In this document: positions 4,355-63,409 of the stretch, in pieces
Layout: every line of letters starts with the position of its first letter
Position numbering within the stretch: the stretch's first letter is position 1
Source: Acidimicrobiaceae bacterium
Lineage (GTDB): Bacteria > Actinomycetota > Acidimicrobiia > Acidimicrobiales > Poriferisodalaceae
Direction: 5' to 3'
Assembly (NCBI GenBank): GCA_026713105.1
Contig: JAPOPC010000082.1
Span: 1 to 64,000 of the forward strand
Length of the DNA: 64,000 nucleotides
Program-made: the position numbers and the translations under genes
Notes under the pieces: generated by a model
The model's input: only the letters and a program-made list of their open reading frames with translations
What the model was told of the DNA's origin: nothing
Database searches by the model: none

Positions 4355-6730
4355 TCAGGCGGTGACGCCCGCCTTGCGCAAGGCCGCCCAGACCCGCTCG
4401 GGCGTGAGCGGGAAGTCGTCCATCCACACGCCCGTTGCATCCGCCAGCGCCGCTGCGACTGCGGGTGCGTAGGGGATCACGCCCATCTCTGCCATGCCGC
4501 GGGCGCCGAATGGGCCGAGCGGGTCGGCCAGTTCGAGCACGACGCTTTCGGTGGTGACGGGGATGTCGCCGATGCCCGGGATCAGATATGTGCTGAAGCG
4601 GGGGTTCAGCAGGCGACCTTCCCGGCTGCGCAGGTGCTCGCTGAGCACATGGCCGTGCGCCTGCGCCACTGCGCCCTCGACCTGGCCCACGACGAAGCGG
4701 GGGTTGATGGCCCGGCCAACATCGTTCGCGTTGATCACACGGTCGATGCGGATGTGACCGGTGTCGATGTCGACGGTCAGCTCGACGTGCTGTGCGACGT
4801 ACCCGTAGGTGAAGTTCGGGGTTCCCTCGCCGGTCTCGGGGTCGAGCTCGGTGGTCGGCGGGGGCGTGAACCGGAAGTGGCCGATCGCCGGTCGATCTCC
4901 GTCGCGCCACGCCTTCTCGGCCTCCTCCGCGGCGCCCAGGATCGAATTGCCTGCCATCCATGTGAGCCGCGATGCCGACGCCGAGCCCGAGTCGCCCGAC
5001 GTGCCGGTGTCGCTGAAGCGGCCCACCACCCTGGAGGGGTCGACACCGGTCGCCTCTGCGGCCATCTGCAGGAATGCGGTGTGCGCACCTTGACCGACAT
5101 CGGCGCCGGCGTGCGACAGCTCGACCGATGCCGGAAGCTCGTCGCTGGGCTCGCCGTGCAGCACGATCGTCGCCTCGCAGCGCTCGGGGAACCCGAACGA
5201 GAAGCCGACGTTCTTGAATGCGCAGGCGAAGCCGCTGCCGCGCCGCAGCGACGACGGCTTGGCCGGTAGCGAGCCGAACGGGCTGAACAGCGCTGGGTCA
5301 TCGGACGGTGCGACGCCGGGTTCTGAGCTGCCGCCCTCGTTGGACGCAGCGGTGCCGGAGCCGGCAGGCAGGGCGGCGGCGTGAGCACACGCCTCGATCA
5401 CCTCGGGCATCGTCACGCCAGCAGGCATGGGCGTGTGGGCGATGCTCGGCGATCCCTCTCGCAGGGTGTTGACGCGGCGGATGTCGATGGGATCCATGCC
5501 GAGCGCTTCGGCCAGCTTGTTCACCTGGCATTCGGTGGCGAAGGCTGCCTGCGGCGCGCCGAAGCCTCGGAACGCTCCACCCGGCGTGGCGTTGGTGTAG
5601 ACCACATGGGTGTCGATGGCGGCATTGGGCAGCTCGTAGGGCCCGCCGAGGCCGAGGTGCAGGTTCCCCATCACCTTGTTCGACGTGTAGTTGTAGGCGC
5701 CCGCGTCCAGCCACGCTTCGGCCTGTGCGGCGGTGATCTTGCCGTCACGGTCAGCGCCCCAGCGAGCCCAGATGCGCCCGCGGTGGCGCTTGTGGTGCCC
5801 GACAATGGATTCCTCACGCGACCACTGCATGGCCACGGGACGGTTGATGCCCCGCGCGGCCAGCCGGGTGGCGGCCAGCGCCAGGACAATCTGCATCGAG
5901 GTGTCCTCGCGACCGCCGAACGCACCACCGATGGCGGGATAGCGCACCCGGACGCGTTCTTCAGCCAGGTCGAGGGCGTGGGCGATCTGCTCGCGATCCT
6001 CGTGTACCCACTGACCTGCGATCTCGACGTTCACGATGCCCTCGGCATCCACCCACGAAGTGCCCGCTTCGGGCTGCAGGTACGCGTGCTCCTGGTAAGG
6101 CACCTCATAGGTGGTCTCCACCACCACGGCTGCGGCCGCGAAGCCGGCTTCCAGATCGCCCTTGCGGGTACGCATCGACTCGTACAGATTCGAGCCGATG
6201 CCCTCATAGGGGTGCACGAGCGGCGCGCCTTCCGCAAGCGCCGCATCGAGGTCAGCCACGACTGGCAGCGGCACCCACTCGACCTCGATGGCGGCAGCGG
6301 CTGCACGCGCCGCGTCCAGGCTCTCCGCGACGATGAGCGCCAGATGGTCGGCCTCCCAGCGGGACACATCGCAGGGCACCGCACTGCGGCCGCTGTGTTC
6401 GAGTCCGACAAAGACCGGCTGGTCGAACTTGGTCAGCCCGTACTCGTTGCGGGGCACATCGGCCGAGCCGAGCACGGCGACGACGCCAGGCGAGCGCTCG
6501 GCACCGCCGAGATCGAGGCGGCGAAGGCGAGCGTGCGGCTGGTCGGTGAACACCGCGAACGCCCACAAGGCGTCGGCGGGGATGCGGTCGGCGGGATAGC
6601 CGGCGAGGCCGGAAACCTTGGCCGGACCATCGGCGCGCGGCGGCGACTGTCCCAGGCCGCCCGCAGTCGGCCTCGCCATCTCGAGCTCAATGGCTGCGCC
6701 GGGCGTTCCAGGAGCGGCGCCCTCCCTCAC
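4355..6730 (-). CDS. Xanthine dehydrogenase family molybdopterin-binding (large) subunit
   Basis: A 791-residue molybdenum hydroxylase large subunit of the xanthine/aldehyde/CO dehydrogenase family. The N-terminal half carries the Ald_Xan_dh domain (DGPAKVSGLAGYPADRIP, then HPYEGIGSNL). The molybdopterin-binding half shows GGAFGGREDTSMQ, GGAFRGFGAPQ and the VGQGAHTAFLQM segment; the active-site glutamate is expected in GARGMAEMG (Glu748). A low-complexity insert near residues 455-495 is not usual. It overlaps the upstream fused FAD/2Fe-2S subunit gene by ATGA, so the two are one coupled unit and together form a complete electron chain. The substrate (purine, nicotinate-like, aldehyde) cannot be told from motifs; no Mo-cofactor or maturation genes lie nearby. 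Confidence 0.85.
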   Translation of the reverse strand: MREGAAPGTPGAAIELEMARPTAGGLGQSPPRADGPAKVSGLAGYPADRIPADALWAFAVFTDQPHARLRRLDLGGAERSPGVVAVLGSADVPRNEYGLTKFDQPVFVGLEHSGRSAVPCDVSRWEADHLALIVAESLDAARAAAAAIEVEWVPLPVVADLDAALAEGAPLVHPYEGIGSNLYESMRTRKGDLEAGFAAAAVVVETTYEVPYQEHAYLQPEAGTSWVDAEGIVNVEIAGQWVHEDREQIAHALDLAEERVRVRYPAIGGAFGGREDTSMQIVLALAATRLAARGINRPVAMQWSREESIVGHHKRHRGRIWARWGADRDGKITAAQAEAWLDAGAYNYTSNKVMGNLHLGLGGPYELPNAAIDTHVVYTNATPGGAFRGFGAPQAAFATECQVNKLAEALGMDPIDIRRVNTLREGSPSIAHTPMPAGVTMPEVIEACAHAAALPAGSGTAASNEGGSSEPGVAPSDDPALFSPFGSLPAKPSSLRRGSGFACAFKNVGFSFGFPERCEATIVLHGEPSDELPASVELSHAGADVGQGAHTAFLQMAAEATGVDPSRVVGRFSDTGTSGDSGSASASRLTWMAGNSILGAAEEAEKAWRDGDRPAIGHFRFTPPPTTELDPETGEGTPNFTYGYVAQHVELTVDIDTGHIRIDRVINANDVGRAINPRFVVGQVEGAVAQAHGHVLSEHLRSREGRLLNPRFSTYLIPGIGDIPVTTESVVLELADPLGPFGARGMAEMGVIPYAPAVAAALADATGVWMDDFPLTPERVWAALRKAGVTA

Positions 6731-54774: not shown

Positions 54775-56525
54775 GACGGCGCGCTTCCCTTCAAGGCGGC
54801 GTCGGCATCGCCCTCGGGACCCAGGATGATGTCGTCGTTCGAACCGCCGGCGGGCACCATCGGGTACACCTTCTCCTCGGTGTCGACACGGAAGTCGATC
54901 ACCACGGGGCGGTCGTTGATCGAGTTCGCCTTCGTGATAGCAGGCACCACCTCCTCGGCCGACTCCACCCGGATGCCCGTACAGCCCATGGCCTCGGCCC
55001 AGCCCACGTAGTCGGGATGATCAGCGCTGAGGTACACCTCGCTGTAGCGCTCTGCGTAGAAAAGCTCCTGCCACTGGCGCACCATGCCCAAGTACGCGTT
55101 GTTGAGAATGGCGATCTTCACCGGAATGTTCTCGGCGCTCGCCGAGATCAGCTCCTGCGCCGTCATCTGGAAGCAGCCGTCGCCGTCCACGGCCCACACG
55201 GTTCGGTCGGGCTGGCCCACCTTGGCGCCGATGGCCGCAGGCACCGCGAAGCCCATCGTGCCGAGACCGCCCGAGTTGACCCAGGTGTAGGGGTAGTCGA
55301 ACTTCCAGAACTGGCTCGCCCACATCTGGTGCTGCCCCACGCCGGCCACCACGATCGTGTCGTCCGGGGTGTGGTCACGCAGCTGCTCCACCACGTATTG
55401 CGGCTTCAGCGGATGGCCGCTCGACGGTTGATCGTATTGCAGCGGGTACTGCTCCTGCCAGCCCGAGATCGTCGACTTCCACGCCGATCGATCGGCCATG
55501 GCGTCAGTGGCGTCGCCGCCGCCGGCAGGCCGCAGCGCCGCGATGAGCGCCTCGACGGCCAAGCGGGCATCGCCGGCGATGGCCACCTCTGGCACCCGCA
55601 CCTTGCCGTGCTCGGCCGGGTCGATGTCGACATGGATGACCTTGGCCCCTGGGGCGAAGTGCGCCGGATTGCCGGTGACCCTGTCGTCGAAGCGCGCGCC
55701 GAGGTTGATAAGCAGATCAGCCTGCTGCATGGCCGTCACCGCCGAGTAGTTGCCGTGCATGCCGGGCATCCCGAGGCACAGGCGGTGACGGTCGGGGAAC
55801 ACGCCGCGGGCCATCAGCGTCGTCACCACATGGATGTCGCACATCTCGGCCAGCTCCCGCAGCGCCTCCGCTGCGCGGGCCTTCAGCAGGCCGCCGCCTG
55901 CGTAGATCACCGGTCGCTGGGCCGTCCGAATCAGTTCCGCCGCCTCGGCAATCGCGGCTGGATCGACCCCGCTGCGCGGCCGGTAACCGGGCAGCTCCAC
56001 GCTGTCGGGCCAGTACCAGGTCATCATCTCGTTGCTGACGTCCTTGGGCAGGTCGATCAGCACGGGGCCGGGACGACCAGTGGTGGCGATGTGAAACGCC
56101 TCGGCCACGATGCGCGGGATGTCGGCAGCTTCGGTGACCAAGTAGTTGTGCTTGGTGACCGCCATGGTGATGCCCGTGGTGTCGCACTCCTGGAACGCAT
56201 CCGAGCCGATCGCCGACATGGCCACCTGGCCGGTCACGACGACCATCGGGATCGAGTCCATGAAGGCGTCACACAGCGGCGTCACGATGTTCGTGGCCGC
56301 TGGTCCGCTCGTGACCATGGCAACCCCCGGCTTGCCGGTGACATGCGCGTATCCCTGCGCCATGTGGCCGGCGCCCTGCTCGTGACGAACAAGAACATGG
56401 CGGATCGGCGAGTCCAGCACCGGGTCGTACACCGGCAGGATCGCCCCGCCGGGCAGGCCGAACATGACCTCGACGCCGCTCATCTCCAAGCTTCGCATCA
56501 ACGCCTGAGCGCCGGTGAGCTCCAT
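54771..56525 (-). CDS. ilvB: Acetolactate synthase large (catalytic) subunit
   Basis: A 584-residue thiamine-diphosphate enzyme. [13 protein letters not shown] and [22 protein letters not shown] (catalytic Glu) are at the N-terminus; [17 protein letters not shown], the FAD-binding middle domain and the C-terminal ThDP motif [41 protein letters not shown] follow. It makes acetolactate for Val/Leu and acetohydroxybutyrate for Ile. Upstream lie a short Val/Leu-coding leader and a hairpin that suggest attenuation control of ilvBN(C). RBS AGGAGAAA precedes the ATG. Confidence 0.95.
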
Positions 56526-56591
56526 GAAGTTTCTCCTGCCCTGCTACTTGGAATGGTCGGTTCGTGAATTGACTGTGCCCATAAATGACTG

Positions 56592-56611
56592 TGCCTCCCG
56601 AGCGGGAGGCA
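56592..56611 (-). promoter_or_regulatory. Hairpin in the ilvB leader
   Basis: A 9-bp stem TGCCTCCCG / CGGGAGGCA with a two-base centre, about 65 nt before the ilvB ATG and 27 nt after the end of the candidate leader peptide. The following sequence (CAGTCATTTATG) has no full U-run. It could be the terminator or its alternative in an attenuator. Confidence 0.45.
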
Positions 56612-56637
56612 GGGCGAGCGCGTCAAGACGGGCCCGC

Positions 56638-56673
56638 CTAGGTGAGTACCCCTACAACCTCGTTACCGCTCAC
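56638..56673 (-). CDS. Candidate ilvBN leader peptide
   Basis: An 11-codon frame (GTG start, TAG stop) reading M-S-G-N-E-V-V-G-V-L-T. Three Val and one Leu codon cluster at its end, next to the stop, as expected when a ribosome must stall for lack of branched-chain aminoacyl-tRNA. GAGG sits just before the start, spaced rather tightly. A stable hairpin follows before ilvB. Known analogy: leader-peptide attenuation of ilvBNC in other actinobacteria such as Corynebacterium. No antiterminator was proven by folding. Confidence 0.45.
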   Translation of the reverse strand: MSGNEVVGVLT

Positions 56674-56817
56674 GGCCTCGGCCGGGCAGCCAAGCGTGTT
56701 TGCTGGCGCGCGCATCGGTTCATTCTGTCGTGCCGTCCCCGCAGCCACAACTTGACACGCGTTCACACACTGCCGAAATCAGACTGCCATGCCGCCGAGC
56801 AGGCGTACATTGGCCGG

Positions 56818-58227
56818 GTGCAGGGCGGACGGCTGTTCACCATCGCGGCCTGCACGGTGGCCATTGCTGCCGGCGCGATGACCGCCGGGTGCTCGGACAT
56901 TGCGATCGACGACGGCACCGGTCCCGCCGTCGGAGATCCCGACGATGGCACCGGCCGAGTGACCACTGTGCCCGCCACGACCCTTCCGCTCACGCAGACC
57001 CCGCAGTACGTGGCATCCAATACGCCCTGCCCCGGCGATCTGCCCGAACTCTCCGCTGCACCGCTCAGCGAGGCGGCTCCCGGGCGTGCCGTCACGCTCG
57101 TGCCGTACATCGATCTCGTCGAAGCGACCGTGATGGTCTTCGACAGCGCGGCGGAGGATGCCGGTGATTCCAGCGCCGACGAATCAGGTGCCGGCGACCC
57201 GGACGGCGATGGCTCAGGCGGCGGCTTCGTGGGCGATAGGAGGGGTCGGATCTGGCGATTTGCGCTCAACCTGGCTGGCCAAGTGGGCAGCGACTTCGGT
57301 GCTGCCATCGGCGAAGAGCCGGTTGCCGACTTCTCCTCGAACACGGCCGCCGAGCACGATCAGGGCTTGGTGGGCATGACGCTGGGGCCCAACGGACGGC
57401 TGTGGATCAACCGCACTGACCGGCACGGTTCCAGCATCCTCACGGTGCTCACACCGACCGCTGATCGCGCAGTGCTGGAAGGCAGCTACGCCGATGTGCT
57501 GGAGGTGTCCCAAACCAATGCGCAGCACAACGGCGGCGATCTGCTGTTCGACGAGAGCGGGCTGCTCTACGTGTCGTTCGGCGACGGCGGGGGCCTCGGC
57601 GATCCCCACCATCACGGTCAGAATCTCGCCACTCCGTTGGGCGCCGTGCTGCGGTTCGCCGTTGACACCGCCGACAGCGACGATCCCGGCGACTGGCGGC
57701 TCACTCCGGCACCGGGCAACCCCGACCTTGGACCCCGCAGCGACCCTCACATCTGGGTGTACGGCGCACGCAACCCGTTTCGCATGTCGTTCGACGAGCC
57801 GACCGGCACCTTGTGGGTTTCCGACGTCGGCCAGCAGTGCATCGAAGAGGTCAATGTGCTCGACCTCGACGAACGCGGCGCCAACCTGGGCTGGAACGCC
57901 TATGAGGGAAGCCGGCGATTCGTCGGTGACGAGCTCGCCGACCACCGGCCGCCCGATTTCGAGTACCGGCACGGGCGCGGACTGTGCGCCGTCATCGGCG
58001 GCCACGTCTACCGGGGCAGCGAATTGGAATGGCTGGCGGGCCGCTACGTATTCGCTGACCTCTGCGGCGGCGACATCTACGCGGCAGCAGTCGAGCCTGG
58101 CGCGCAGCCCGATGAGGTCTGGCACCTGGGCGTGAGTACGCCGAGGCCGGTTGGGTTTGCGGTCGACGGGGCCGGCGAGCTCTACGTGATCGACATGGAA
58201 ACCGGCGTGTGGCGCCTGAGCGGATAG
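56818..58227 (+). CDS. PQQ-type aldose/sorbosone dehydrogenase-like lipoprotein
   Basis: A 469-residue exported protein. From the GTG at 56818, a signal RLFTIAACTVAIAAGAMTAGC ends in a lipobox. The beta-propeller domain belongs to the glucose/sorbosone dehydrogenase (GSDH/YliI) family: EHDQGLVGMTLGPNGRLWIN, NGGDLLFDESGLLYVSFGDGG, HIWVYGARNPFRMSFD, LWVSDVGQQCIEEVNVL and a late YVFADLCGGDIY. These would bind PQQ and calcium and oxidise a sugar. The GTG start fits the signal peptide; the frame is open 300 nt further but crosses the ilvB leader. A TTGACA at 56752 lacks a good -10 partner. Confidence 0.82.
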   Translation: MQGGRLFTIAACTVAIAAGAMTAGCSDIAIDDGTGPAVGDPDDGTGRVTTVPATTLPLTQTPQYVASNTPCPGDLPELSAAPLSEAAPGRAVTLVPYIDLVEATVMVFDSAAEDAGDSSADESGAGDPDGDGSGGGFVGDRRGRIWRFALNLAGQVGSDFGAAIGEEPVADFSSNTAAEHDQGLVGMTLGPNGRLWINRTDRHGSSILTVLTPTADRAVLEGSYADVLEVSQTNAQHNGGDLLFDESGLLYVSFGDGGGLGDPHHHGQNLATPLGAVLRFAVDTADSDDPGDWRLTPAPGNPDLGPRSDPHIWVYGARNPFRMSFDEPTGTLWVSDVGQQCIEEVNVLDLDERGANLGWNAYEGSRRFVGDELADHRPPDFEYRHGRGLCAVIGGHVYRGSELEWLAGRYVFADLCGGDIYAAAVEPGAQPDEVWHLGVSTPRPVGFAVDGAGELYVIDMETGVWRLSG

Positions 58228-58276
58228 GGCGCGACCAGATGATCGCTGCCTCCTTGATCGCGGTCGGGCCCTAGCC

Positions 58277-59587
58277 GTGCTGCGCCGCACGGTCTATGAC
58301 CGCGAGATCCTGCTGCTCGCTGTTCCGGCGTTCGGCGCACTGATCGCCGAACCGCTGTACGTCGTCACCGACACGGCGATCGTGGGCAGGCTCGGCACGC
58401 CCGAGCTGGCAGGGCTTGCGATCGCTTCGGCCATCCTGCTCAGCGCTCATGCGGCGTTGATCTTCCTGGCCTACGGCACGACCGGGCTGGTGGGTCGGCT
58501 CGTGGGTGCTGGTGCTCCGCAGAGAGCCGCTGAACAAGGCATCGCCGGCATGTGGCTTTCGGTCGGCTTCGGCATCGCTGTCAGCTTGGGCATGTGGGCC
58601 GGCTCGGGATGGCTCGTGGGCCTGTTCGACCCGACTCCCGAAGTCGCCGATCTGGCACTCACGTACTTGCGGATCAGCCTCATCGGCTTCACTGCGCTGC
58701 TGGCGGCAATGGCCGCTACCGGCTACCTGCGGGGCGCGCAGGACACGATCACACCCCTCATCGTGGCGGTGGCGTCCGCTATCGCAAATCTCCTCATCGA
58801 GCTGGTCCTGGTGTTCGAGCTCGACATGGGCATCGCCGGCTCGGCATGGTCGACCGTCATTGCCCAATGGGCGGCGGCAATCGCCTTCGCCTTCGCCGTT
58901 CGCCGCCGCACGCGGGCCGTCGGCGCCTCGTTGCGGCTCGTCGCAGCCGCAGCCCGCCGCTATGCCCGCGTCGGGCTGCAGATGTTCGCGCGCACGAGCG
59001 CACTGCGAGGCTCGTTCGTGCTGGCGGCCGTGTTTGCCTCGCGCATCGGCACCACCGAGGTGGCCTCGCACCAGATCGGCGCCGAGATCTGGGCGCTGCT
59101 GGCCCTGGCGCTCGATGCGGTCGCCATAGCGGGCCAAGCCATGGTGGCCAAGGAACTGGGCGCCGGCCGGCCCGGTGTGGCGCGCGCTGCCAGCGTCCGG
59201 ATGATCGGCATGAGCCTCCAGCTCAGCTTCGTGTTCGGCCTGGTGCTCGTCGTGCTGCGCGGGCCGCTGGCATCGATCTTCAGCACTGATCCCGACGTGG
59301 TCTCCCTCGGCGGATTCATCCTGCTGTTCGTGGCCGCCATGCAACCGGTCAATGCCGCCGCATTCGCCTTCGACGGCATCTTCATCGGCGCCAGCGACCT
59401 GGGCTTTCTGGCATGGGCGATGGTCGGTGCCGCAGCGGGCTTTGCAATCGTCGGCTGGACCGTGCGTCTGCTGGATCTGGGAATCGGCTGGCTGTGGGCT
59501 GCGCTCATCGTGTTCATGTGTTTTCGCGTCGCGCCGCAGTGGATCCGCTTCCGGGGCGACGCGTGGCTTCGCACCGGCGAGGGCTGA
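58277..59587 (+). CDS. MATE family efflux transporter (DinF-like)
   Basis: A 436-residue protein with twelve predicted membrane segments in two similar halves. LAVPAFGALIAEPLYVVTDTAIVGRLG at the N-terminus is the MATE/DinF signature, and ATGYLRGAQDTITPLIVAV and a counterpart RTSALRGSFVLAAVFASRIG follow. It would export drugs or metabolites using an ion gradient. GTG start at 58277, 50 bp after the dehydrogenase gene, probably co-transcribed with it. It is convergent with the methyltransferase gene at 59638. Confidence 0.9.
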   Translation: MLRRTVYDREILLLAVPAFGALIAEPLYVVTDTAIVGRLGTPELAGLAIASAILLSAHAALIFLAYGTTGLVGRLVGAGAPQRAAEQGIAGMWLSVGFGIAVSLGMWAGSGWLVGLFDPTPEVADLALTYLRISLIGFTALLAAMAATGYLRGAQDTITPLIVAVASAIANLLIELVLVFELDMGIAGSAWSTVIAQWAAAIAFAFAVRRRTRAVGASLRLVAAAARRYARVGLQMFARTSALRGSFVLAAVFASRIGTTEVASHQIGAEIWALLALALDAVAIAGQAMVAKELGAGRPGVARAASVRMIGMSLQLSFVFGLVLVVLRGPLASIFSTDPDVVSLGGFILLFVAAMQPVNAAAFAFDGIFIGASDLGFLAWAMVGAAAGFAIVGWTVRLLDLGIGWLWAALIVFMCFRVAPQWIRFRGDAWLRTGEG

Positions 59588-59637
59588 ACACGCGTGTATC
59601 GGACTATCTGGAGTTCAAGCAGTTCCTTGCGAATCCG

Positions 59638-60846
59638 TCAAGCCGCGTCTTCACGACCTACGGCATATCCGACGTCGACGCCGAACATCTGCTGCACAGA
59701 CTCCGCAATTGCCCGCCCGAGCAGCGGTGGAACCGCGTTGCCGATCTGTTTTGCGATCTTGGTTCTGTTGCCTGCGAACTTGAAGTCGTCGTCAAATGAC
59801 TGAAGCCTCGCGCCTTCACGAATCGTTAATGCACGATCCTGATATGGATGAATGCACTTATTTGATGCAGGATGAACAAAATTCACAGTAATTGTGACAG
59901 AGGGCTCATGCGGTTCAAGTCGTGAATAACATGACGAGAATCCAGAAGTAATCAGATGTTCCGGCACAGAACTGATATTGGAGCCAGAATGTTTGATGAT
60001 CTCTAGCATCCGGCTGGAGTGAGCAGTAGCCACATGCCATTCGAGCTGTGTAGAGCGCGATCGTCGCTGCTCCTGATACATAGTTTGAGGCTGGCAAGAA
60101 TACGTATCGACTTGCTCGCCCGCTGACAAGCGAGGAAGGTCACCAATTGCCTCCATCACCGTCACGGCCCGCGGAAGATCTGTGATGTGATCTTCGAAGA
60201 GCGACACTATGCCGCCGTTCTCAGCTGGCGCCAGTATTCGATGCCGCTCGCGTAATCCAATGGTCCGAAAAATGCCTGCGTGGGTGGGCTGCGGGAATCT
60301 GACAGCCACACCTTCCTGAGCCCCAATTAAGATGAGACGTTCGCGCTTCTGAGGCACTCCGAAATGAGCAGCGTTAAGCACTCTCCAGTCCACATCGTAA
60401 CCAAGATCGGAGAAGCAATTCTCAATCTGCTCTATGGTTGTACCATTCTTATAGGTAGCGAGGCCTACAACATTCTCCATGACAAATACAGCCGGTCGAA
60501 AATAGTTGACGTACGCTGCGAACTCTTCGAACAAGCTGTTGCGAGGATCGTCCTCGGTCATTGAGCGAAATGGCCTGATCGACGAGAAGCCTTGGCATGG
60601 TGGGCCTCCGACGATGACATCAATCTCGCCTCGCGCCAGACCAGTCCGCTCGGCAACGACACCGAGTCGCACCTGCCGGATGTCGTCAGTGAACGTTACG
60701 GCTCGAGGATGATTCAAGCGGAAGGTTTCGATGGCCTCGGGGAGCATGTCGATGCCGCACACGACCTCGAAGGCGCCCGCATCCTCGAAGCCCTTCGAGA
60801 ATCCTCCGGTGCCAGAGAACAGATCCATGATCTTGAGCGGGGCCAT
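59638..60846 (-). CDS. DNA (cytosine-5) methyltransferase
   Basis: A 402-residue C5-methyltransferase with the canonical order: motif I MDLFSGTGGFSKGFEDAG (SAM), motif IV GGPPCQGFSSI with nucleophile Cys84, motif VI VFVMENVVGL, motif VIII QKRERLILIG and motif X GNAVPPLLGRAIAESV. The stretch between about residues 180 and 340 is the target-recognition region. It is complete, so active methylation is expected. Base composition is visibly lower in GC (long AT-rich stretches at 59820-60560) than neighbouring core genes, a sign of transfer. It is divergent from the HTH-endonuclease gene, with a palindromic operator between. Confidence 0.92.
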   Translation of the reverse strand: MAPLKIMDLFSGTGGFSKGFEDAGAFEVVCGIDMLPEAIETFRLNHPRAVTFTDDIRQVRLGVVAERTGLARGEIDVIVGGPPCQGFSSIRPFRSMTEDDPRNSLFEEFAAYVNYFRPAVFVMENVVGLATYKNGTTIEQIENCFSDLGYDVDWRVLNAAHFGVPQKRERLILIGAQEGVAVRFPQPTHAGIFRTIGLRERHRILAPAENGGIVSLFEDHITDLPRAVTVMEAIGDLPRLSAGEQVDTYSCQPQTMYQEQRRSRSTQLEWHVATAHSSRMLEIIKHSGSNISSVPEHLITSGFSSCYSRLEPHEPSVTITVNFVHPASNKCIHPYQDRALTIREGARLQSFDDDFKFAGNRTKIAKQIGNAVPPLLGRAIAESVQQMFGVDVGYAVGREDAA

Positions 60847-60882
60847 TGCGCCTACCTTGCCACCGAGTCGTCGCGGGTGTGC

Positions 60883-60919
60883 GAGACTATAGTCTCACCG
60901 AGTCCGGTGTGGGTGGACT
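60883..60919. promoter_or_regulatory. Candidate controller operator and divergent promoter of the restriction-modification locus
   Basis: GAGACTATAGTCTC (60883-60896) is a perfect 14-bp palindrome. Because it contains TATAGT on both strands it can serve as a -10 element in both directions. Further half-sites follow: AGTCC (60901-60905) and GGACT (60915-60919) in inverted arrangement. GACT/AGTC dyads are the type of site bound by controller (C) proteins of restriction-modification systems. It lies 37 nt from the methyltransferase start. Confidence 0.55.
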
Positions 60920-60933
60920 TAGGCTTGACCTTT

Positions 60934-61836
60934 GTGACACTCGGTGCTGACGACGAGGAGGCCGAGACCGCCCGCGCCGTTGCGCGCGCAGTCGGCACTG
61001 TGGTGGGCAGCCTGCGCGATCAGCGAGGCTGGTCGCTGGCCGAACTTGCTGACGAGACCGGAAAGCACCGCACCCACCTCGGTCTCGTCGAGCGCGGTGA
61101 GCGCCATGTGAGTGTCGAGTCGGCGTATCGGCTCGCCAGGGCGCTGGGATTGTCACTGACTGAACTCGTCAACATGGCCGAAACGAACGCGGCGGGTGGT
61201 GACCTGCCCGTTCGCCTTCCAGCACGAACGCCGCCGCCGCACGCAGCGCGAAATGCCGACAGTGTCAGTACCACGACCGGACTCGGCGAAACATGGATTG
61301 TGGGCGCGATCACGAACACCTACCGACGGTTGGATCTGATCGACGAGCAGTTGATCAACGCCGGCACCCAACCGCTCGCAGAGATCATCGAGCTCGCAAA
61401 CCTCTCCGCCATGATCGGCAATCTCCTGCGCTCAGCGCTCGCGGATGCGTCGGAGGGGGCATACAGAAGCAACGATCCGCACAAGTATCCCGATCTCGTA
61501 TCCGAGTCAGATCGAGCGTCAGACCTGGGGATCAAGGTCGCGCTTGAAACAAACATGCCCAAGGGTCATCTGCCAAAGCCGGGCCAGCACCTCATTTTCC
61601 GCTACGTGCTCGGCGGCCGCCGAGGGGAGTATGTCCGCGGCAGGCGAGGCAACGTCGTATGGATCTGGGAAGCGCGCCTCGGAAACCTCAGTGCCATCGA
61701 CTTCGCTGAATCGAACACTGCGGGGGATTCCGGCAAGACCGCCGTCATCAGAGCACGCGTTCTTGACGAGATAGCGTGCGTCTACTACGACCATCGCTTC
61801 TTGCCATACGCGAGACCTCGCACCGGACACGAGTGA
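60934..61836 (+). CDS. XRE helix-turn-helix fused to a putative ApaLI-like restriction endonuclease domain
   Basis: A 300-residue protein from a GTG at 60934 (other GTGs at 60877 and 60913). Residues 15-82 are an XRE-type DNA-binding domain (VVGSLRDQRGWSLAELADETG, then HLGLVERGERHVSVESAYRLARALG). Residues 118-300 look like a restriction endonuclease: ITNTYRRLDLIDEQLINAG, ELANLSAMIGNLLRSALA, PHKYPDLVSES (Pro186, Asp187), GIKVALETNMPKGHL with Lys201, then RYVLGG and NTAGDSGKTAV. From memory this resembles the ApaLI-like family. The catalytic PD-(D/E)xK would have Gly199 where Glu or Asp is usual. The divergent C5-methyltransferase is the natural partner. A regulator-endonuclease fusion is inferred, not proven. 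Confidence 0.65.
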   Translation: MTLGADDEEAETARAVARAVGTVVGSLRDQRGWSLAELADETGKHRTHLGLVERGERHVSVESAYRLARALGLSLTELVNMAETNAAGGDLPVRLPARTPPPHAARNADSVSTTTGLGETWIVGAITNTYRRLDLIDEQLINAGTQPLAEIIELANLSAMIGNLLRSALADASEGAYRSNDPHKYPDLVSESDRASDLGIKVALETNMPKGHLPKPGQHLIFRYVLGGRRGEYVRGRRGNVVWIWEARLGNLSAIDFAESNTAGDSGKTAVIRARVLDEIACVYYDHRFLPYARPRTGHE

Positions 61837-61839
61837 GGT

Positions 61840-62034: not shown

Positions 62035-62116
62035 AGCGCTGTGAGGGTCCGGGCCGGGTAGGGAGGGATCCCCCAGAATCGGAGGTGCTTTGTTGCCCCG
62101 ATTCGGGAGGATCCCT

Positions 62117-63409
62117 GTGGCTGTTGACCTTACGCGTGCGTTGTTGTTGATCGTGGGTCTGGGTCCGGGCGTCGCGGTGCTCGATGTGCGGGGCCGCCGC
62201 GGCGGCCCGCTCGAGATCGAGGTGGCGCTGAGCGGGCGGCCGTGCTGTGGGGGCTGCGGCGGGCCGGTGTGGGCTCACGGGGCGAGCGGGGTGGGTCTGG
62301 CTGATCTGCCGGCGTTCGGGCGACCGGTGCGGCTGGTGTGGCGAAAGCGCCGCTGGCTGTGCCCCCATCAGGGCTGCTCGGTGCGCACGTTCACCGACCA
62401 GGAGCCCGCCATCGCGCCGCCCAGAGGGCGCATGACGTCCAGGGCGGCGAGGCACGCGACCCGCCGGGCGGGTGCGGGGCGGGCGATCAAAGAGATCGCT
62501 GCCGAGCTGGGATGCAACTGGCACACCGCGATGGCCGCAGTGCAACGGTGGGGCCGGGCGCTGCTCGAAGCGGACCCCGGCCGTGTCGACGGCGTCACCG
62601 CGCTCGGCTTGGACGAGATCTTGATGTTCCGCCGCGGCCCGTTCCGCGACAAGCAGTGGGGCACCACGATCGTGGACGCCCGCCGAGGCGTCTTGCTGGA
62701 CATAGTCGCTGGTCGCAGCGCCGAGGGCGCCACACGCTGGATCCAGGGGCGCACCTCGAGATGGCGAGCTCGGGTGCGGTGGGCGGTCATGGACCTGTCA
62801 GGCCCCTACCGCAAGGCGTTCAGCGACGCCTTGCCCAAAGCGATCCAGGTCGCCGATCCGTTCCATGTCGTCAAGCTCGCCAACAGCACCATCGACGAGG
62901 TGCGCAGACGCGTCCAGAACGAGACCACCGGCGGGCGCGGCACCAAAGAGGACCCGCTGTATCGGATACGGCGGCTGCTGCTCAGAGCACACGAACGCGT
63001 CACCGAGCGCGGCGAGGCGAAGCTGCGCGGACTGCTCGCCGCCGGCGACCCCCACGGCGAGGTCCGCGACGCCTGGCACGCCAAGGAGACCCTGCGCATG
63101 ACCTACCGCATCGGCGACCACGAACTCGCCCTCGAAGCCATCGACGAGCTGTCCCGCGACCTGCGCGACGACACCTACTCGCCGGAGCTGAACAAGCTCG
63201 GCCGAACCCTGCGTTCCTGGCGCACCCAGATCACCAACTGGCACCGGTCGCGGGTGACCAACGGACCGACCGAGGCAGCGAACAACCTCGCCAAGCTGAT
63301 CAAGCGAGTGTCGTTCGGGATCACCAACTTCGACCACTACCGCACCCGAGTGCTCCTGTATGCAGGAAAACCCGACTGGACGCTGCTCGACACCCTCACC
63401 CCACGCTAA
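62117..63409 (+). CDS. ISL3-family transposase
   Basis: A 430-residue DDE transposase. The N-terminus has a zinc-finger-like region (RPCCGGCGGPVWAHG, WLCPHQGCSVRTF) and a helix-turn-helix (AIKEIAAELGCNWHTAMAAV). Catalytic residues are expected in ALGLDEILMFR (Asp), WAVMDLSGPYRKAF (Asp) and TNGPTEAANNLAKLIKR (Glu), the typical ISL3 order. GTG at 62117 is chosen because GGGAGG lies 6 nt before it. The stop codon TAA lies inside the right inverted repeat. The frame is intact, so the element may still be active. Confidence 0.92.
   Translation: MAVDLTRALLLIVGLGPGVAVLDVRGRRGGPLEIEVALSGRPCCGGCGGPVWAHGASGVGLADLPAFGRPVRLVWRKRRWLCPHQGCSVRTFTDQEPAIAPPRGRMTSRAARHATRRAGAGRAIKEIAAELGCNWHTAMAAVQRWGRALLEADPGRVDGVTALGLDEILMFRRGPFRDKQWGTTIVDARRGVLLDIVAGRSAEGATRWIQGRTSRWRARVRWAVMDLSGPYRKAFSDALPKAIQVADPFHVVKLANSTIDEVRRRVQNETTGGRGTKEDPLYRIRRLLLRAHERVTERGEAKLRGLLAAGDPHGEVRDAWHAKETLRMTYRIGDHELALEAIDELSRDLRDDTYSPELNKLGRTLRSWRTQITNWHRSRVTNGPTEAANNLAKLIKRVSFGITNFDHYRTRVLLYAGKPDWTLLDTLTPR

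Follow-up and report, generated by a model that had tools for sequence, protein, structure and literature searches.

Does a locus in the window (the whole 64,000-nucleotide stretch of DNA analysed here) encode a restriction-modification (R-M) system whose controller and endonuclease are one molecule, and how would such a molecule act on its own promoter? The question arose from an earlier note on positions 59638-61836, in which a C5-methyltransferase was described as divergent from a 300-residue protein carrying an XRE helix-turn-helix (HTH) and an ApaLI-like nuclease domain, and in which the fused protein was proposed to repress its own synthesis until methylation is established. The locus proved to be real and the observation was confirmed in part, its interpretation being likewise partly supported; beyond it, a conserved operator palindrome and the loss of a catalytic glutamate came to light. 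The best explanation, to which we assign a probability of roughly three in four, is a type II R-M system of the controller-endonuclease (C-REase) fusion type, in which the fusion would activate its own promoter and repress that of the methyltransferase.

Results

Gene arrangement and domains

The locus consists of two divergent genes, with the following products and domains:

59638-60846, minus strand: C5-cytosine DNA methyltransferase (M), 402 aa, assigned by Pfam and PADLOC profiles
60934-61836, plus strand: fused controller-endonuclease (CR) protein, 300 aa, GTG start
61012-61167, plus strand: XRE/C-protein-like HTH domain, residues 27-78, Pfam HTH_3 1.3e-13
61285-61833, plus strand: PD-(D/E)XK-type restriction nuclease domain, residues 118-300, by AF2 model, Foldseek and a SnaBI-like profile

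The methyltransferase is complete, as had been claimed, with strong matches to Pfam DNA_methylase (2.6e-69) and PADLOC MTase_II (3.5e-107) and with the motifs DLFSGTGG, GGPPCQGFS, ENV, QKRER and GNAVPP all intact; its dN/dS against the closest relative, locus L006, is 0.067, and the enzyme is active-looking. The stretch 54802-61837 of the window is syntenic with L006 at 79%. Directly downstream of the fusion gene lies an ISL3-family transposase (62090-63409), of which L006 possesses a related copy in reverse orientation, 79% identical at the DNA level.

The HTH of the fusion scored best against Control_protein (2.5e-10) among the R-M and defence profiles of PADLOC. If designed repeats are set aside, its best PDB matches were C.BclI (9e-9) and C.AhdI (8e-5), C.Esp1396I reaching an E-value of only 0.05. 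A C-protein-type HTH and a restriction nuclease domain thus share a single reading frame, which bears out the earlier claim of regulator and endonuclease in one chain, and open fusion frames of 300-310 aa are also present in L023-L027. The AF2 model of the full-length fusion was too poor for use (pLDDT 56).

Kinship of the nuclease domain

A Pfam scan of the C-terminal domain gave no meaningful family match. The intact domain of the closest relative, the L006 orthologue, was modelled on its own with AF2 from 12 sequences. This model (pLDDT 89.9) retrieved EcoRV, DpnI and HincII as its top 16 PDB matches in Foldseek, the best of them weak (E 0.0098, probability 0.93, TM about 0.4), and it places D69, E81 and K83 as the PD and (D/E)xK elements on adjoining strands of a mixed core. 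Fold and motif jointly support a PD-(D/E)XK restriction nuclease, so that the nuclease nature of the domain, as first supposed, is upheld by the model; membership applies to the family, the Glu being absent from the window copy.

Its kinship was sought with sequence profiles. PADLOC PDLC03564, which by sequence is the SnaBI-like family, since a phage protein named R.SnaBI by its depositors scores 1.7e-96 as a true member, weakly matched eight of ten members of the present family, in part of its length only (1.9e-4 at best, to 4e-3); none qualifies as a full-length member. In hhalign the nuclease domain gave 91% over 73 columns with three SnaBI-like proteins, and 97% with a second, uncharacterised PD-ExK group (L022, L028, L029), distant kin that adjoins a DPPY-type methyltransferase. 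On these comparisons the SnaBI-like family is the nearest sequence kin. A search of 198 genomes with PDLC03564 yielded no match, the nuclease profile run against PDB sequences returned just one chance match, and among these searches no characterised relative was found from which a recognition sequence could be read.

The earlier assignment to an ApaLI-type enzyme cutting GTGCAC did not hold. It had come from the earlier note's impression; RE_ApaLI (PF09499) was unmatched in all ten family members at E<=10, and the strongest links lead to the SnaBI-like family instead, which makes this reading highly improbable. A search of 60 genomes for members of PF09499 came up empty, in the controls too. 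With the ApaLI kinship the proposed site GTGCAC loses its support as well.

On the Peribacillus plasmid pSHB26 (L030:2395-6457), two homologous SnaBI-like nucleases occur together with two different C5-methyltransferases, one of them 55% identical to the M of the window. This set of genes hints at an enzyme that is a heterodimer and whose site is asymmetric.

Apparent loss of the catalytic glutamate

Within the nuclease domain of the window two positions deserve attention:

61489-61494, plus strand: P186-D187 of the PD...ExK motif, intact and invariant in all relatives
61528-61530, plus strand: codon 199, GGG (Gly) in the alignment, catalytic Glu lost; L006 has GAG

Every relative retains PD...EIK, and the window alone reads GIK (E199G), a change explained by one transition from GAG to GGG. 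By sequence, E199G removes an acidic metal ligand, the loss of which generally abolishes cleavage in PD-(D/E)XK enzymes. The window copy thus falls short of a type II system in the strict sense, its adjacent endonuclease having no intact active site, and it is probably nuclease-dead unless the base is wrong; such a fusion would still bind and regulate without cutting.

A decay of the nuclease following E199G was considered and rejected: dN/dS across the domain is 0.094, indicating purifying selection, and no significant acceleration was detected on the branch of the window copy. Given both results, the Glu was probably lost recently, or the base is an error. We consider it less likely than not that G199 stems from faulty sequencing or assembly and that the window copy is an intact, working R-M system; the single transition, the lack of further decay and the origin of the sequence from a 117-contig metagenome-like draft all speak for it. 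It appears quite unlikely that the former endonuclease is now a pure regulator, which binds the C-box and sets M expression, its nuclease domain being kept only as a platform for dimerisation or folding. If true, this would show a defence on its way to becoming a stand-alone methylation system, still governed by its former controller.

Operator and promoters

Two elements between the genes bear on regulation:

60883-60896, palindromic and without strand: operator, perfect 14-bp palindrome GAGACTATAGTCTC, identical across 15 fusion loci
60920-60925, plus strand: TAGGCT, predicted to be the -10 element of the fusion promoter; it lies 23 nt from the operator, and the start codon follows at 14 nt

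The loci that share the intergenic palindrome range from Acidimicrobiia to a Psychrobacter plasmid. It is present once in the source genome of the window, and a scan of 395 genomes of the class located the exact 14-mer in all six that bear a fusion, always at the fusion locus, and in none of the 389 others, whereas the reversed pattern, counted as a control, was seen in three other genomes of the class. Near-copies occur in L021 (GAGACCATAGTCTC) and L018 (GGGACAATAGTCTC); the HTH-less loci L005, L015 and L019 are devoid of the exact 14-mer, nor was it met in the literature searched. Its core, GAC-TATA-GTC, corresponds to the optimal C-box of C.Esp1396I, in which GAC and GTC enclose TATA (PMC3758141), so that a predicted C-box lies upstream of the CR gene. 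No second, OR-like operator was conserved within 45 nt, and the tandem arrangement of OL and OR, which occurs in C.Esp1396I and is not known to be required in all C systems, is therefore missing. With a single site here as against OL and OR in classical C systems, repression at high fusion level may be absent. A role of the palindrome as an RNA hairpin was considered unlikely, since transcription is predicted to start downstream of it in both directions.

A further observation concerns the flanks of the 14-mer. In seven of ten loci (L006, L007, L009-L012 and L026, not the window at 60875-60904) the arms are palindromic over 4-8 further bp, with letters that differ by lineage and covary. At 36 of 50 flanking positions the bases are paired, compared with 18 +/- 4 when partners are shuffled, and in L007 and L010, which differ at 15 of 300 residues, the arms differ symmetrically (GGC...GCC against GGA...TCC). 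None of these outer arms falls in a predicted transcript. Their covariation has no obvious explanation in a dimer that reads sequence; it could arise if imperfect palindromes were corrected by template switching, or if a cruciform were selected for.

On the fusion side of the operator a -10-like hexamer was found at a distance of 23-25 nt in all ten loci, with a mean score that none of 500 shuffles reached. The first in-frame RTG follows exactly 14 nt past the start of this hexamer in 12 of 12 Acidimicrobiia loci scanned, a constant gap from which a GTG start at 60934 and a leaderless fusion mRNA are predicted. A -35 consensus sought downstream of the operator was not recognisable in any of the ten loci. 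From the predicted transcription start, the operator is centred near -43. Lambda CI at OR2 occupies about -42, the position of a class-II activator, and the placement of the operator, in combination with the missing -35, resembles it. On the opposite side a weaker -10 (TATAAT in Psychrobacter) lies 9-11 nt from the operator, which thereby would cover the -35 region of M; in several loci, the window among them, this M -10 is weak.

By position, then, the sequence suggests a circuit of fusion self-activation and M repression, the location near -43 being suggestive only of activation at the own promoter. A bifunctional fusion would dimerise on the lone symmetric C-box of the intergenic region, where it would block the -35 region of M and activate its own promoter. 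In a new cell M would appear ahead of the endonuclease, whose level would climb only once the fusion has accumulated. As in C-protein systems, the operator by its position speaks for this circuit rather than for the self-repression until methylation that was first proposed.

Two other modes of action were weighed. XRE proteins on a single dyad are commonly repressors, and with only one operator found, the bound fusion might simply shut both promoters and keep the nuclease level low. We regard this as unlikely, because in ten of ten loci the operator lies upstream of the fusion -10, near -43 and with no -35, which fits activation and not polymerase exclusion, and because C proteins on this type of box activate the endonuclease gene. 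Activation might alternatively be indirect, the fusion merely keeping RNA polymerase off the M promoter and thereby freeing the overlapping divergent one. The single operator over the predicted M -35 region agrees with such a mode, and there is a precedent in one C protein that, according to a 2025 review, activates by promoter competition (PMC12707154). The fixed 23-25 nt to the fusion -10 and the missing -35 suggest direct contact with RNA polymerase instead, so that indirect activation is rather unlikely, and direct self-activation remains the preferred reading.

Distribution among relatives

The family comprises about 18 related loci, some fusion loci being near-identical to one another. 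Besides Acidimicrobiia genomes, they come from one Bacteroidetes genome, the Psychrobacter plasmid pA15BP4 (WP_181716916, intact like the L006 protein), two IMG/VR contigs and a Streptococcus suis phage. The earlier note had made its reading depend on the domain not being widespread away from methyltransferases, and in fact each of these relatives adjoins a C5-methyltransferase, that of the S. suis phage being more distant and SinI-like. In this phage (L005:4932-6281) a frameshifted HTH-less nuclease lies by a SnaBI-like nuclease and the SinI-like methyltransferase.

The HTH is carried by the nuclease throughout the fused clade and is absent from the nucleases of L015, L019 and the phage. On the viral contig L019 (5911-8039) it is fused to the methyltransferase and not to the nuclease, and the two genes converge; upstream (5311-5811) there appears to be an ORF resembling Vsr (very short patch repair). 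In L021 (1474-2455) HTH and nuclease occupy two overlapping frames, shifted by one base, whose junction falls on the same residue; this was not accepted as an ancestral separate C gene, a frameshifted fusion being as likely as a genuinely split C and R pair. In L014 (1-889) codon 74 of the methyltransferase stands head to head with codon 163 of the nuclease, operator and both starts being gone, either by deletion or by an assembly join.

The tree has the HTH-less proteins as its earliest branches and unites the fused proteins in a single, moderately supported group (80/84), which is consistent with a fusion that arose once. Depending on the relative, the nuclease, the methyltransferase or neither carries the HTH, and this offers a natural comparison of regulatory wiring.

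Discussion

A regulator fused to a restriction enzyme is rare but has precedents: C-REase fusions of the PvuII family have been on record since 2013 (Liang & Blumenthal 2013, PMC3850674), and for CR.NsoJS138I cutting as well as activation of its own promoter were demonstrated (PMC3850674). As in the window, the XRE controller of these proteins is N-terminal to the endonuclease, several members have a divergent methyltransferase, the C-box is intergenic, and HTH-less relatives occur in other lineages including Streptococcus. The window locus differs from them in its other, uncharacterised endonuclease family, its C5-methyltransferase partner, its single perfectly symmetric operator, the predicted leaderless mRNA and, in this copy, the lost catalytic Glu. 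The family described here adds a separate case of C-REase fusion, in a nuclease family unrelated to PvuII.

Compared with C.Esp1396I, C.BclI and C.AhdI, the fusion has a similar HTH (most strongly to C.BclI) and the GAC-TATA-GTC box in common; these controllers are separate small proteins, whereas that of the window is fused, and Esp1396I has three operators (OM, OL, OR) where the window has one. The SnaBI-like endonucleases (PDLC03564) share the helix plus PD region with the window domain, but at about 20% identity, with partial coverage and without an HTH. In Ecl18kI and SsoII a regulator is also fused to an R-M enzyme and acts on overlapping divergent promoters (PMC12707154); there the HTH is N-terminal on the methyltransferase, as in L019, and in the window on the nuclease.

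Since regulator and nuclease are one, the same molecule would set the delay of restriction and the amount of nuclease, and the single symmetric site renders this control of delay and dose testable without the complication of OL and OR. The operator is unusually clean: a single perfect dyad, set in a near-invariant promoter frame, has the same sequence in Actinomycetota and on a gammaproteobacterial plasmid. The locus shows that the fusion of a C regulator to an endonuclease has arisen in a second endonuclease family besides PvuII.
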